Assembly: GCA_903875425.1 (NCBI GenBank)
Contig: CAIQWC010000012.1
Span: forward strand, 62,001-126,000
Length of the DNA: 64,000 nucleotides
Direction of reading: 5' to 3'
Source: an uncultured Actinomycetes bacterium
GTDB lineage: Bacteria; Actinomycetota; Acidimicrobiia; Acidimicrobiales; RAAP-2
The notes under the pieces are model-generated. The model ran no database searches. It was not told where the DNA came from and saw nothing but the letters and a program-made list of their open reading frames with translations. A program made the translations under genes and the position numbers. Shown piece after piece: positions 24,517 to 34,771 of this stretch. Within the stretch, counting starts at the first letter, position 1. The number at the start of each line of letters is the position of its first letter.

Positions 24517-26136
24517 CTATAGAACGCGCAGCCGACGCTGCTCGGCCCGTCGTTCTGATTCGAGCCGCTCAAGATCACTGGCGCCGTGATCCATATGGGT
24601 CATGGCTGCACCAATTGCTCGATGCCCGGCCGTATTTTCTATCTCGCGATGCATGGCCTGAGCCACGCGTCGATAGGAGGGATGACCCTGTGGCCCTGAG
24701 CGAAGTTCGAGGAGATGCATTGCTTCGCGGGCGTTCATTTGCATCACGTAACGAATCCGATAGGCCAGACTCACGGCGTAGCCTGCCTGCTCGGGCATGG
24801 TGCGTGCGAGATCAAGGTAGAGCGCCCGCGAACGTTCCATGGCGTCTTCGTATTCAACGTCGAGCTCTGCTTCTTCGATAATCGCCGGCATGTCGTATCC
24901 CAAGGAAACATCCAGGGGTTGCCAGTCGATCGTCAAGAGGCGATGTCGTTGCAAGTCTCGAAACGCCCCATAGTCAGTCGTCAATTCGAAGCGGTAATCA
25001 GTGCGCTCGAATGCTCGACCGGGACGATGGCGACGGTTCTCTCGTTCGCCCACATAGGCGTCGAACATGGCGACCTTGTCCTCGTGACTCAGTCCCTTAA
25101 CCCGGCTGAGCGCTTCTGATTCGGATAAGCGTGTGGCCGCGAAGACAATGGCGGCGAGCACCTTGTCTTCGCCTTCAGGATCGAAGGAAACGAGGCGCAC
25201 CTCATCTTCGACTGGCGTGAGTTGTGGTGCCATGGCGTCTGGCCAGATTCGCTCGAGCACTCGGTGAGTGTCAGAACGTGTGTCTTGGAAGTACTTGGTC
25301 CAAACTCCCCCGCGGTCAGCGATGTCGACACGCCGTAAGAAACTGGGGATGACCTTCCTTAGTTCTTCGAGCATCATGTCCGCGTACTGGCGTGACTCGG
25401 GAAGCGCAAGCGCTCGCATGCGAAGGAGGAGCGACTCGTAGGCTTGGCCTGATCCGTAAATACCGACGTTCGAAAGTGACGAGGCCGGCAACAGTCCACG
25501 AACTGCATCGAGCGCTTTGGCTCGAATGGCTTGGCGGTATACGAAATCAGAATCACCGGATTCTTGCGGGTAGCGCTGCGTCAACCACTGCTGCACCTTA
25601 GGGAGCATGATGGCATAGGAGTCAAAGAGACGATCCATGTCACCGATGTAGCGAGCGCCCATCGGGGAATCTAAAATTTCTGGACTTCGGTAGTATCGGT
25701 AGAAGCCGTTAGGCATCCGAGCGTCATAGCTCAGGTAGCGAGTGGATTGCTCGAGGTAACTCATGAGCCGACCCCACTCGAGGATCTTGGTCAGCACGTT
25801 CGATGCTTGCTCACAAGCGAGGTGGACACCACCGAGCTGGGCAACGGAGTCGTCTCCATATTCGAAGAACACCTTCTCATAGAGCTCCTCGGCTCTCCTT
25901 AACCCCACGGTGGCATCAAAGCTGAGATCGCCACTGAGATCGAGATCGCCAACAAATTCATCGAGGAAGAGTCGACGAAGGCTCTTGGGGCTTCGTGAAT
26001 AGCGAGCAAAGAGCGCACCTTTGACTACCTCGGGAAGGTTGACGAGGGCAAAGACGGGCTGGTCGAGATTGGTGAAATAGGGCCTCAGGACAGCCTGTTC
26101 ATCGTCGGTGAACAACTCAACGGAGTACGTAGACAT
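24517..26136 (-). CDS. Tandem ThyX-like protein (FAD-dependent thymidylate synthase homologue)
   Basis: 539 residues, about twice a normal ThyX. The N-terminal half (to about 270) carries EWGRLMSYLEQSTRYLSYD, matching the ThyX 'S-NE-S-RY' part but with EWGR in place of RHR, and later LRMRALALPESRQYADMML. The C-terminal half (about 310-539) carries LQRHRLLTIDWQPLDVSLGYD, keeping RHR but not the NE-S-RY part, then LELRSGPQGHPSYRRVA. So each half keeps a different part of the active-site motif. True thymidylate synthase activity is not proven. It follows helY after 23 bases. Confidence 0.75.
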   Translation of the reverse strand: MSTYSVELFTDDEQAVLRPYFTNLDQPVFALVNLPEVVKGALFARYSRSPKSLRRLFLDEFVGDLDLSGDLSFDATVGLRRAEELYEKVFFEYGDDSVAQLGGVHLACEQASNVLTKILEWGRLMSYLEQSTRYLSYDARMPNGFYRYYRSPEILDSPMGARYIGDMDRLFDSYAIMLPKVQQWLTQRYPQESGDSDFVYRQAIRAKALDAVRGLLPASSLSNVGIYGSGQAYESLLLRMRALALPESRQYADMMLEELRKVIPSFLRRVDIADRGGVWTKYFQDTRSDTHRVLERIWPDAMAPQLTPVEDEVRLVSFDPEGEDKVLAAIVFAATRLSESEALSRVKGLSHEDKVAMFDAYVGERENRRHRPGRAFERTDYRFELTTDYGAFRDLQRHRLLTIDWQPLDVSLGYDMPAIIEEAELDVEYEDAMERSRALYLDLARTMPEQAGYAVSLAYRIRYVMQMNAREAMHLLELRSGPQGHPSYRRVAQAMHREIENTAGHRAIGAAMTHMDHGASDLERLESERRAEQRRLRVL

Positions 26137-30191: not shown

Positions 30192-31574
30192 TCAGAGCGA
30201 CTCGATGAGGCGATCAACGCGTTCGTCGTGCGACTTAAACGGGTTTTTGAGCGTCAAGGTGCGCTGCGCTTGGTCATTGAGTTTGAGGTGCACCCAATCG
30301 ACGGTGTAGTCCCGGCGCTGTTCTTTGGCTCGCTTTACGAAGGCACCCCTGAGTCGAGCCCTTGTGGTTTGAGGAGCGCTCACGACGGCCTCGCGTATCG
30401 CATCATCGGAAATGATCCTCTCGGCCTGATTACTGCTTTGCAATCGGTAGAACAAACCCCGAGCAGGATTGATGTCGTGATAGAGCAAATCGATCATCGC
30501 GACCTTTGGGTTAGTGAGCGCCAGTGCGCTGCGCTGTCGATATTCATCAATGAGTCGACGTTTGGCTATCCAATCGATCTCTCGCCATAATTCATCTGGA
30601 TCACGCCATAGAGCGTCGATGGTGTTAGCCCACATGTCGAGTGCTCTGTCTTCTTCTGGCTGCAAGCCTTTTGAATCGCGATATTTCAAGGCACGCTCAA
30701 CGAATTCAGTTTGAATCTCAAGTGCCGAAAGGTCTCGGCCGTTGGCGAGCCGAACCTTGGCCTTTAGCGTTGGATCTTGGGAAATCTCACGAATAGCTCG
30801 AACCGGATTCTCGAGCGTCAAATCTCTCAAGATCTGTCCATGGTCTTCGAGGATGCTCAGCATGACGCAGGTGGCGCCCGCCTTGAGAAAGGTTGCGTGC
30901 TCTGACATGTTGGAGTCACCCACGATGACGTGTAAGCGTCGATATTTGCTCGCATCAGCATGAGGTTCGTCCCGAGTATTGATTAACGGTCGAGATCGCG
31001 TGGTTGCCGAAGACATGGATTCCCACATGTGTTCCGCTCGCTGTGAGATCACGTAGCGAGTGTTTCTCCCGTCGAAGAGAACCTTGCCGGCTCCTGCATA
31101 AATTTGTCGGCTGACGAGAAATGGGATGAGGTACTGCTCATAGGTGACGGGGTCCACATCACGGGGGGTGAGGTAGTTCTCGTGGCTGCCGTAGGAATTA
31201 TTAGCGGAATCAGTATTGTTTTTGAAGACGTAAATTTGACCCCGGTGACCGTCTTCATTCAGACGTTCCTGCGCGCCACTCACGAGCTGATTGAGAATCC
31301 ACTCCCCCGCTTTGTCATGGGCGACTAAGTCCGAAATCTTGTCGCACTCAGGGGTGGCGTACTCGGGGTGACTCCCAACATCGAGGTAGAGCCGAGCACC
31401 ATTTTCGAGGAATACATTCGAACTACGCCCCCATGAAACAACTCGCTTAAAGAGATGACGCGCCACTTCGTCTGGCGAGAGGCGACGCTGTCCCTGATGG
31501 GAAAACGTAACCCCAAATTCAGTTTCGATACCGACGATTCTCTTCTGCACGTAACGAACAGTATCGGAGAACAC
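30192..31574 (-). CDS. pafA: Pup-protein ligase PafA
   Basis: Uses ATP to join the C-terminal Glu of Pup to lysines of target proteins. It has 460 residues. [12 protein letters not shown] holds the catalytic/metal-binding glutamates; [21 protein letters not shown] and [22 protein letters not shown] are the conserved core of the carboxylate-amine ligase fold. GTG 31574 has GAGG at five bases; GTG 31550 would give the more usual short N-terminus. The start lies 19 bases after prcA. Confidence 0.96.
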
Positions 31575-31593
31575 GCCGCCTCAGGGGCGTTGA

Positions 31594-32277
31594 CTACGAC
31601 GCGCCAAGGAGCGTGGCTATGGTGGCGTCATCGAGACGCTCGAAGGTGCGGCGACCGTTACCCTCAGACAACATAGCAGCTTCGAGGTCCTCGGGTCCAA
31701 GGGTTCTCTCGGTCCCAGCAAGTGCAGCGACGCAGGCTTTGACTGCTGCGTCCAGCTCCCATGAAGCGTCGAATCGGCCTGCAAAGTTCTGGCGAATCGT
31801 TTCCGCTTCGCCACCCAGGACGGCCCATTCCCCCTCATCGGTGATGGTTCCCTCATAGGCGACGTGAAACAACTGAGTCGGGCGCTGTTCATTGGCAAGT
31901 TCGGCAACGAGGATTTCTACTTCGAGCGGCTTCATCTCATGGGTGAAGACGTTGCCGAGGTACTGAGCGTAGAGATTCGCCAGCGATCGGGCATCGACGT
32001 CGGAGCGAGAAAACTGAAAACCTTTTAAGTCGGCATGCCTAACGCCAGCGACACGTAGTTGATCGTATTCGTTGAACTTACCGACGCCAGCGAAAGCGAT
32101 GCGGTCATAGATCTCTGAGATCTTGTGCAGGGTTTTCGAAGGATTCTCCGCGACGAGTACCACACCCTGGTTGTAGATTGCTGCGATCAAGGACCGGCCG
32201 CGAGCGATGCCTTTTTGGGCATACTCCGCACGGTCTTTCATAATTTGCTCGGGTGCTACGTAATAGGGCATGCTCAT
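31594..32277 (-). CDS. prcA: Proteasome subunit alpha
   Basis: Forms the outer, gating rings of the 20S core. 227 residues. The N-terminal gate segment MSMPYYVAPEQIMKDRAEYAQKG matches the bacterial PrcA pattern with an alpha-helix H0, and SLIAAIYNQGVVLVAENPS follows. There is no catalytic N-terminal threonine, as expected for alpha. Its start overlaps the prcB stop by four bases, so the two ring types are co-translated. Confidence 0.95.
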   Translation of the reverse strand: MSMPYYVAPEQIMKDRAEYAQKGIARGRSLIAAIYNQGVVLVAENPSKTLHKISEIYDRIAFAGVGKFNEYDQLRVAGVRHADLKGFQFSRSDVDARSLANLYAQYLGNVFTHEMKPLEVEILVAELANEQRPTQLFHVAYEGTITDEGEWAVLGGEAETIRQNFAGRFDASWELDAAVKACVAALAGTERTLGPEDLEAAMLSEGNGRRTFERLDDATIATLLGAS

Positions 32278-33077
32278 CGCAGTGAACCTCCGGCGGCGCC
32301 ACCGAGTTCGCGGCGGCGCTCAATCGCTTCTTCAAAGCGTCTCGCAACCTCGGCATCATCAATGCGCTGGTAACCCTGATTGCTAACGCAGGCCACAAGG
32401 GGGTAGATACCGCGAACCATATCCGGACCCCCGGTGGCTGAGTCAGCATCGGCTGCTTCGTAGAGCGCTAAGACGGCGAGCTCCACAGCTTCGTCGACGT
32501 CTAAATTGTCTCGATAGCCCAATTTGATCGTGGTCCGTGCGTCGCGACCACCCGACCCCGTCGCTTGGAAGTCGGTCTCTTCGTAGTGACCGCCAGTGGG
32601 GTCGTAGGTAAAAATACGCCCGGTATTCTTCGCGAGATCAAAGCCACAAAATAAAGGTACGACAATGAAACCTTGCATGGCCATGGGTAGGTGGGTACGC
32701 ACCATCTGGGCGAGTTGGTTTGCTTTACCTTCGAGACTGAGGGTGACGCCTTCCACTTTTTCGTAGTGCTCGAGTTGTACCTGGAAGAGCTTGACCATCT
32801 CTAAGGCCATGCCGGCTGATCCCGAGATAGCAACAGCGGAGTAGCGATCCGCAGCGAATACTTTCTCCATCGCTCGATGCTCAATCGCGTGGCCGGCGGT
32901 CGCACGCCTATCCCCTGCCATGAGGACTCCATCACGGTAGCGAATAGCTAACACGGTGGTGCCGTGTGGCGACATCGTCGCCGCGTTTTCGGAGATACCT
33001 TGTATGCCCCGTGTGGCGAGCAAGGAGGCAAAATCAGGGCCTGGATCCAGCTGAGGTTTAAACAAAGGAAGGGCCAC
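32274..33077 (-). CDS. prcB: Proteasome subunit beta
   Basis: The catalytic ring subunit, 267 residues as precursor. The propeptide runs to residue 39; cleavage at HG|TTVLAIRY exposes Thr40 as the nucleophile. Asp and Lys equivalents (GDRRAT, and K in MEKVFAAD) are present, with GSGG further on. The GTG start shares one base with the pup stop, as expected for one operon. Confidence 0.96.
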   Translation of the reverse strand: MALPLFKPQLDPGPDFASLLATRGIQGISENAATMSPHGTTVLAIRYRDGVLMAGDRRATAGHAIEHRAMEKVFAADRYSAVAISGSAGMALEMVKLFQVQLEHYEKVEGVTLSLEGKANQLAQMVRTHLPMAMQGFIVVPLFCGFDLAKNTGRIFTYDPTGGHYEETDFQATGSGGRDARTTIKLGYRDNLDVDEAVELAVLALYEAADADSATGGPDMVRGIYPLVACVSNQGYQRIDDAEVARRFEEAIERRRELGGAAGGSLR

Positions 33078-33274
33078 TATTCGCCACCCTTTTGAACGTA
33101 GTTGCGCACGAATTCTTCGGCATTGTCTTCAAGCACCAGGTCAATTTCGTCGAGCAAACTATCGAGATCGGCTTTCAATTGCTCCGCCCCCGCGCTACTT
33201 GTCGGTTCTCCTGTTTCAACGTCTTGCGAATGGTCTGCTTGCTTTGGGCGCTGCGTGCGCTCTTGTTCAGCCAT
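33077..33274 (-). CDS. pup: Prokaryotic ubiquitin-like protein Pup
   Basis: 65 residues, disordered and acidic, with a helix-forming Mpa-binding segment (EQLKADLDSLLDEIDLVLED). The C-terminus is VQKGGE. It ends in Glu rather than Gln, so the product needs no deamidation before PafA can use it. The usual place between dop and prcB confirms the call. Confidence 0.97.
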   Translation of the reverse strand: MAEQERTQRPKQADHSQDVETGEPTSSAGAEQLKADLDSLLDEIDLVLEDNAEEFVRNYVQKGGE

Positions 33275-33286
33275 GTGCCAACCTCC

Positions 33287-34771
33287 TTATTGACCCAGTA
33301 AATCTAAGAGCTGTCGTGCGCTCTGGGATCTTGCAAAAATATCCTCAGTCGAAGCCTTCGTGCCCCTCATGGGATCCATCATAGGTACGCGCCGCAGAGG
33401 ATCCTCCCCAATATCGAAGACCACCGAATCCCAATTGGCTGTGACGACCTCCGACGGGAATCGCGATAGTGCCGTGCCTCGGAACCAGGCTCGAGTGTTT
33501 TCAGGTGGGTTAGTACAGGCGCTCAGGGCGCTGTCAGGGTCAATAATCGTCTCTAGACCGGCACGCTGGGCAAGCGATCGCTCTGGCCGAAGGTCGTGAT
33601 ACTGAAGGTCAATAGCCTGAAGCCGGGGATCCGACGGCCTGAGTTGATGACGATCTGCGAAAGCGCTCAACAGGCGCCACTTGGCCACCCAGTCAATGGT
33701 GCTAGCCATTGATAAGGGATCAAGGCTCAATCCAAGAAGTGCCGCCCGCCATCGCTCGAGCAGCATCGAGGCAATTGCTGGACCGCCGAGGAATGTAGCG
33801 TCTTTCCCGTCAAGGTAGTGCGTCGCAGCATCGAGGTACTGATATTGAATCTCAAGCGCCGTCATAGAACCTCGATCGGTCGGGATGGCGACCGTCACGC
33901 TGCTGTCTTGGCTGATGAGGTGGACGGCATGGACGGGATCGAGGGGGAAACCAACGCTCTCGGGTAACGCTCCATCTTCGAGCATGGCCAAAATCACACT
34001 GGTCGTCGCTAATTTCAAAAAAGTAGCAACTTGAGAGCAGTTGGCGTCGCCGATGATCACATGGAGTCGTCGAAATTGCGAAGCGTCGGCGTGGGGTTCA
34101 TCGCGAGTGTTAATGATGGGACGCTTAATGGTCGTCTCAAGTCCTTCGACGGCTTCGAAGAATTCAGCGCGCTGCGAAATTTGGAAATGCTCGAGGTCCA
34201 GAGCGCCGACACGTTCAAGCCCTACTTTTCCTGAGCCGCAGTAGATCTGACGAGTCACAAAATGAGGGATGAGGGCATTGGCGATTGCGTCAAATGCGAC
34301 GCTCCGGTCCACGAGATAGTTCTCGTGACAGCCATAGCTTTGTCCTTTGGCGTCCGAGTTATTTTTGTACACCACGATTTCGGGCGCCTCGGGATACACC
34401 CGTTTAACGGCCTCCATGGCTTCCAACATGACGATCTCACCAGCGACGTCAAAGAGCACTGCTTCGAGCGGCGTCCGGCACTCAGGACTCGAGTACTCGG
34501 GATGGGCGTGATCTACGTAGAAGCGCGCTCCATTGGTGAGTACGGTATTCGCGAGATGCCGCTCGACTGCTGGTGCGCGGTCGCTGTCGCACTGAGATCC
34601 TCGAGCGTCGCGATGTGGTGACTCACCTTCAAAATCCCAACTGCTGTGATGCGCTAGGGATTGGGCATAGGCGCTCACCAATAGCGTCGAGGTAACGATG
34701 GGGTCGGCCAAGGGGTCAGCACTCGTAATCCCGTATTCAGTTTCAATGCCGAGAACTTTAGGAAGTGCCAC
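33287..34771 (-). CDS. dop: Pup deamidase/depupylase Dop
   Basis: 494 residues, a PafA homologue that cleaves the Pup-lysine bond. VLGIETEYGITS carries the metal/ATP glutamates; VYKNNSDAKGQSYGCHENYL and [22 protein letters not shown] are shared with PafA. The extra segment after residue 20 (DPLADPIVTSTLLVSAYAQ), the Dop loop region, sets it apart from PafA. Because Pup here ends in Glu, depupylation should be its only role (inference). Confidence 0.96.
   Translation of the reverse strand: MALPKVLGIETEYGITSADPLADPIVTSTLLVSAYAQSLAHHSSWDFEGESPHRDARGSQCDSDRAPAVERHLANTVLTNGARFYVDHAHPEYSSPECRTPLEAVLFDVAGEIVMLEAMEAVKRVYPEAPEIVVYKNNSDAKGQSYGCHENYLVDRSVAFDAIANALIPHFVTRQIYCGSGKVGLERVGALDLEHFQISQRAEFFEAVEGLETTIKRPIINTRDEPHADASQFRRLHVIIGDANCSQVATFLKLATTSVILAMLEDGALPESVGFPLDPVHAVHLISQDSSVTVAIPTDRGSMTALEIQYQYLDAATHYLDGKDATFLGGPAIASMLLERWRAALLGLSLDPLSMASTIDWVAKWRLLSAFADRHQLRPSDPRLQAIDLQYHDLRPERSLAQRAGLETIIDPDSALSACTNPPENTRAWFRGTALSRFPSEVVTANWDSVVFDIGEDPLRRVPMMDPMRGTKASTEDIFARSQSARQLLDLLGQ

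Follow-up and report, generated by a model that had tools for sequence, protein, structure and literature searches.

The active site of the thymidylate synthase ThyX (Pfam PF02511, NCBIfam TIGR02170) is shared by several subunits. In the Mycobacterium tuberculosis enzyme, subunit A gives RHR and R199 (R174 in the Thermotoga maritima numbering used below), subunit C gives Q103 (through its backbone), S105, R107 and Y108 (T. maritima 86, 88, 90 and 91), and subunit B gives Ser71 (T. maritima T55) and Arg190 (PMC6514825). The dUMP site has been described with Ser88 and Gln89 on one monomer and Gln75 and Arg182 on another (PMC3498832), H53 sits on a third monomer (PMC11940539), and S88, R90, Y91 and R174 are catalytic in characterized ThyX (PMC8316439). 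ThyA (PF00303) performs the same overall reaction with an unrelated fold and would require DHFR. In 2009, Valas and Bourne noted a duplication of the ThyX domain in Chloroflexi and a small number of other species and called it uncharacterized; the passage concerned mentions neither motif loss nor composite sites (PMC3224940). Judged by that description, it is very likely the same family as the tandem protein treated here. Protein gp020 of Microcystis phage Ma-LMM01 (PHROG 36506), another member, is annotated merely as thymidylate synthase or ThyX homologue. A full-text literature search, with most subscription papers outside its coverage, returned no account of a reciprocal split of residues or of composite-site logic and no description of the phage members of the tandem family; as far as it reached, tandem ThyX has never been characterized.

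Here, we describe a tandem ThyX that resembles T. maritima TM0449 and M. tuberculosis ThyX in the fold of each half, catalytic residues, presumed substrates and presumed THF-sparing chemistry and differs from them in being about 540 amino acids long, with two domains, the motif divided between the halves, a score under the TIGR02170 cut-off and an expected two, not four, sites per tetramer-equivalent. Our main reading, to which we give a probability of roughly 85%, is that it is a fused two-domain ThyX, the cell's sole enzyme converting dUMP to dTMP, acting through composite sites; we infer assembly, site number and activity.

The gene lies in the window (the whole 64,000-nucleotide stretch of DNA that was analyzed) on the minus strand (26136..24517; the strand was missing from the earlier note), as do all features located below. 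It is an unbroken open reading frame of 539 amino acids that spans exactly 24517..26136, with ATG at 26136 and TAG at 24519..24517. Its codon-position GC (66/41/62%) is typical of a real gene, and its GC content equals that of the window. PF02511 (Thy1) matched two stretches of the protein (126.5 bits; cut-off, 24.8), and the cut-off of the TIGR02170 thyX equivalog was missed (49.9 versus 87.9 bits). The leading PDB matches of a full-length AlphaFold2 model (alignment of 25 relatives; pLDDT, 87.2; pTM, 0.85) were ThyX throughout. The C-half (about residues 301 to 539; 24520..25236) has a ThyX fold in its AlphaFold model (Z of 17.0 to 6j61 and 16.9 to 1o26), and the N-half (about residues 1 to 300; 25237..26136), modeled alone with AlphaFold2 (pLDDT, 84.1), matched 3ge9 with Z of 13.2 over 183 residues, versus Z below 4 for the first unrelated PDB entry. 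The two Thy1 stretches and the ThyX fold of each half bear out the earlier note's claim of two ThyX-like domains in one chain. Direct BLASTP of half against half gave nothing significant, and an N-half profile did not match the C-half of the tandem protein, the divergence being too great; homology of the halves therefore rests on Pfam, folds and trees.

For 135 distinct tandems, encoded by actinobacteria, plasmids and large phages and as little as about 20% identical to the window protein, both halves were aligned with 31 canonical ThyX, including that of T. maritima. The T. maritima reference sequence was checked against its known residue numbers. The first 118 relatives were chosen without catalytic motifs (patterns GDDSVAQL or ALFARYSR, or whole-domain or whole-protein searches); about 19 viral proteins were fetched or cut with patterns touching catalytic motifs and are to that extent a biased sample.

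The N-half keeps the folate loop, GDDS, the ExSxRY active-site loop and the R147 equivalent and has lost RHR and R174. ARYSRS (residues 44 to 49; 25990..26007) holds S47, the S30 of the folate loop, conserved in 135/135 N-halves. GDDS (residues 94 to 97; 25846..25857) corresponds to T. maritima GHET 52 to 55; S55 is invariant (135/135), and H53 is replaced by D in 112 of the 135, including the actinobacterial ones, with D95 being H in the 23 divergent members. The dUMP-side active-site loop, EQSTRY (residues 129 to 134; 25735..25752), supplies the equivalents of E86 (134/135), S88 (135/135), R90 (135/135) and Y91 (Y or F, 135/135; Y134 is F in one tandem), and RGLLP (residues 213 to 217; 25486..25500) supplies R213, equal to R147 (135/135). 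LEQSTRY (128 to 134) and, at the place of the lost RHR, EWGR (120 to 123; 25768..25779) both read in the sequence as the earlier note had them; across N-halves, R78 is kept in 16%, H79 in 1% and R174 in 0%, position 174 being M, L, F or I.

The C-half shows the converse. RHR (residues 397 to 399; 24940..24948; R78-H79-R80, FAD and dUMP binding by homology) and R479 (24700..24702; the dUMP-activating R174) are present in 135/135 C-halves, and ExSxRY, R147, S30 and T55 are lost: S88 persists in 7% of C-halves, R90, Y91 and R147 in 1% each, S30 in 20%, T55 in 2% and H53 in 0%. The claim that this half keeps LQRHR (395 to 399) without the NE-S-RY part thus holds in the sequence, and its relatives keep the pattern. 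R80 alone is kept by both halves (86% of N-halves). The degenerate segments carry conserved motifs of their own, EWGR in the N-half and WQxL and NRRHxPGR in the C-half; the latter lies in the clade-specific NRRHRPGRAFE (residues 367 to 377; 25006..25038), which replaces GHxTPFE.

All catalytic residues of ThyX are thus present in the tandem polypeptide, divided between its halves. The complete ten-residue set occurs in no single half, all ten fall in the expected half in 134/135 chains, and the contiguous RHRx7SxR is absent from every single domain of the 135 proteins (RHR in C-halves only, SxR in N-halves only). S131, R133, Y134 and R213 of the N-half and R397-H398-R399 and R479 of the C-half were invariant in 118/118 tandem relatives and then, one Y134F apart, in 135/135 with very divergent phage members included; from these alignments, the reciprocal pattern is judged not to be chance. 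E58, N163, R165 and N169 lie off the clean split: the actinobacterial clade has them in the C-half (85 to 92% overall; NAR, residues 468 to 470, 24727..24735, equals N163-A-R165, with N in 87% and R in 85% of C-halves), whereas most phage and Bacilli members carry R165 in the N-half. The D in place of H53 in actinobacterial N-halves is a further misfit. The third-subunit role is therefore less certain, and its FAD-side contacts may have shifted.

Numbered on T. maritima, the published roles are residues 78 to 80 and 174 for subunit A, 86 to 91 for subunit C and 55, 165 and 53 for subunit B. R147 presumably belongs to the subunit that carries S88, as in the HAMAP/UniProt annotation, and would join role C. 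The kept and lost residues of the tandem split along these roles, so that, by residue content, the C-half is an A-only domain and the N-half a B+C domain. Neither half appears to work alone, and a working site would draw on both. To judge from the residues, the most likely assembly of the fused chain is a pseudo-tetramer in which two composite sites are complete and the other two are dead. Two chains would assemble like ThyX from two N-halves and two C-halves; with C-halves at positions A and D and N-halves at B and C of a D2 tetramer, every role would be filled in two sites and none in the other two. In a complete site, the C-half would supply RHR and R174 (flavin binding and dUMP activation), one N-half would add the ExSxRY loop with R147 for the dUMP phosphate and for catalysis, and the other N-half the folate loop and GDDS helix. 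The mirror sites would be dead, having an N-half without RHR and a C-half without SxR. As ordinary ThyX does, the enzyme would draw on methylene-THF for its flavin and dUMP and release THF, making DHFR unnecessary.

The earlier note had raised, as one option, one hybrid site per fused pair. The hybrid site is supported, the split of losses matching subunit roles; its construction from one pair alone is less likely. Each site probably takes three half-domains of two chains, giving one complete site per chain and two per dimer. C-halves were considered as third subunit and rejected, as they lack equivalents of S30, H53 and T55. The residues lost would be those that serve only dead sites, a prediction that the ten residues fit. 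Since a ThyX site is common to several subunits, fusion would have let each copy shed residues serving only the other site. The tandem would then be a natural example of complementary loss following gene fusion. It makes testable whether ThyX needs four sites at all and offers a defined two-site form of a symmetric enzyme, in which individual residues could be altered at a single site.

The dead sites may have a use: the motifs NRRHxPGR, WQxL and EWGR could mark conserved non-catalytic pockets for a nucleotide, NADPH or folate that regulate the two working sites or feed them. We think this unlikely; if true, the same site would exist twice in one chain, in a catalytic and in a regulatory form. 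The same motifs lend something to a very unlikely reading in which substitute residues keep all four sites active, or make sites within a single half active, and no composite arrangement exists. Such sites would have to function with M, L, F or I at N-half position 174 and with variable C-half positions 88 and 90, although S88, R90, Y91 and R174 matter in characterized ThyX (PMC8316439), and the split agrees with published subunit roles.

Composite sites acting as the cell's synthase agree with what else the genome encodes. The source genome (1.61 Mb; 97.7% complete; draft in 46 contigs) has neither a normal thyX nor a thyA, the presence of which was the first part of what the earlier note had set against its proposal: profile searches found no second Thy1 (single ThyX) and no match to ThyA (PF00303). 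Thymidine kinase, dNK and DHFR were likewise not found in it, and it carries thymidylate kinase (tmk) and two dUTPase-family genes. On this genome context, the role of thymidylate synthase in the cell almost certainly falls to tandem ThyX. In the order (Acidimicrobiales), Thy1 matched 113/118 genomes, nearly always twice, and among the matches listed such pairs almost always shared one frame of about 540 amino acids or more. ThyA matched 5/118 genomes (3 strongly), thymidine kinase was found in 30/118, and DHFR exceeded its cut-off in 2/118 (G042 and G061), each time directly adjoining a ThyA gene. The five genomes without a Thy1 match, all drafts in many contigs, are also without ThyA. A genome that lacks both ThyA and DHFR must have a synthase that spares THF, as ThyX chemistry does, and most members of the order, which also lack DHFR, appear to rely on tandem ThyX as their only thymidylate synthase. 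G042 and G061 also retain Thy1 matches, and their thyA-folA pair was apparently gained. In G298, which has two Thy1 matches as well, a ThyA match is split into two frames (219 and 98 amino acids), and ThyA is perhaps being lost there.

This inventory bears on the earlier note's other option, a non-synthase flavoprotein. The halves would then have decayed toward another role, as might be argued from the absence of the canonical contiguous motif in either half, from the score under the equivalog cut-off and from C. glutamicum, whose ThyX homologue is not required to make thymidylate according to the titles of PDB entries 3fnn and 3ge9. With every catalytic residue invariant but divided between halves, ThyA, thymidine kinase, dNK and DHFR all missing from a genome that is 97.7% complete, and the ThyA/DHFR picture repeated across the order, a pseudoenzyme is highly improbable. 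It is scarcely credible that the protein, at least in some phages, acts on a different nucleotide, as a PolB-type UMP/dUMP methylase or modified-base synthase: phages often modify bases and PolB (4p5b) is a structural neighbor of the halves, but its match ranks below canonical ThyX, which come first, and no other dTMP source was found in the bacteria. An error of assembly or annotation, or gene decay, conceivable in a 46-contig draft, has the intact frame and the normal codon-position GC against it and is already refuted by the same architecture in well over 100 independent genomes or records.

Relatives occur beyond this class. Tandem ThyX is also found in other classes of the phylum; a search of the named genome collection matched at least 571 places, and of these the best 80 are nearly all titled Acidimicrobiia or other actinobacteria. 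Plasmids of Miltoncostaea, Euzebya, Parabacteroides, Paenibacillus and Bacillus carry it, and NCBI annotation already labels plasmid members FAD-dependent thymidylate synthase. Some large phages have it too (Tunturi_5, Vibrio XC31 and BONAISHI, Microcystis Mvi-JY20 and Ma-LMM01), as do IMG/VR contigs, of which many measure about 200 kb; the Tunturi_5 protein alone, as a query against viral contigs, gave no match. Ma-LMM01 gp020 has the same tandem architecture and residue split at about 22% identity to the window protein, whose full-length model matches it over 524 columns. The family shows that thymidylate synthases can escape motif-based annotation.

In the tree, N-halves form one clade (UFBoot 100) and C-halves another (UFBoot 97), which argues for a single ancient duplication and fusion, inherited since then as a unit; exact placement is uncertain because of long branches. 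A 470-amino-acid tandem from a human fecal phage (L177; MT835736) is nearer to single ThyX in sequence and shows the same split (SRRY in the N-half, RHR in the C-half). With L177 removed, FastTree support rose from 0.78 to 0.98 to 0.99, and it may be a second, independent fusion. On a 278-kb Parabacteroides distasonis plasmid (L127; NZ_OY725790; Bacteroidota), the tandem thyX, 47% identical to the window protein, neighbors a galactose epimerase and an ATPase. Records titled as a Bifidobacterium breve MAG (L120) and an Acidobacteria MAG (L082) hold tandem thyX of the Acidimicrobiia type (65 to 66% identity) and are probably mislabeled bins. Two IMG/VR tandem frames of about 905 amino acids (L166 and L167) are both interrupted by an intein-like insert at an identical position in the N-half folate-site helix (GHS^CYDE...ISGN^SVAEH). 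One candidate from a Streptomyces-like genome (L026; G378:C1:3664000-3667000) was rejected as a tandem, being a canonical thyX cut into two Thy1 pieces by an intein-like insert directly after the RHR segment (RHRVGW^C...HN^SYNEESGRY).

The neighbors of the window's tandem thyX are housekeeping genes. Among named relatives with full flanks, a DEAD/DSHCT helicase gene was a neighbor at 45/45 loci and a DUF4193 gene at 29/45, which marks tandem thyX here as an old chromosomal housekeeping gene. Elsewhere, the tandem gene of phage Tunturi_5 adjoins a dCMP deaminase gene and lies near a dUTPase gene, that of the Euzebya plasmid lies near dcd, and Ma-LMM01 gp020 is expressed together with RNR (ribonucleotide reductase) and dUTPase (PMC5780444). 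Close to tandem thyX, window positions 30192-34771 hold two Pup-ligase/deamidase-like genes and two 20S proteasome subunits (named by eye), with TatC, TatA/B and signal peptidase between.
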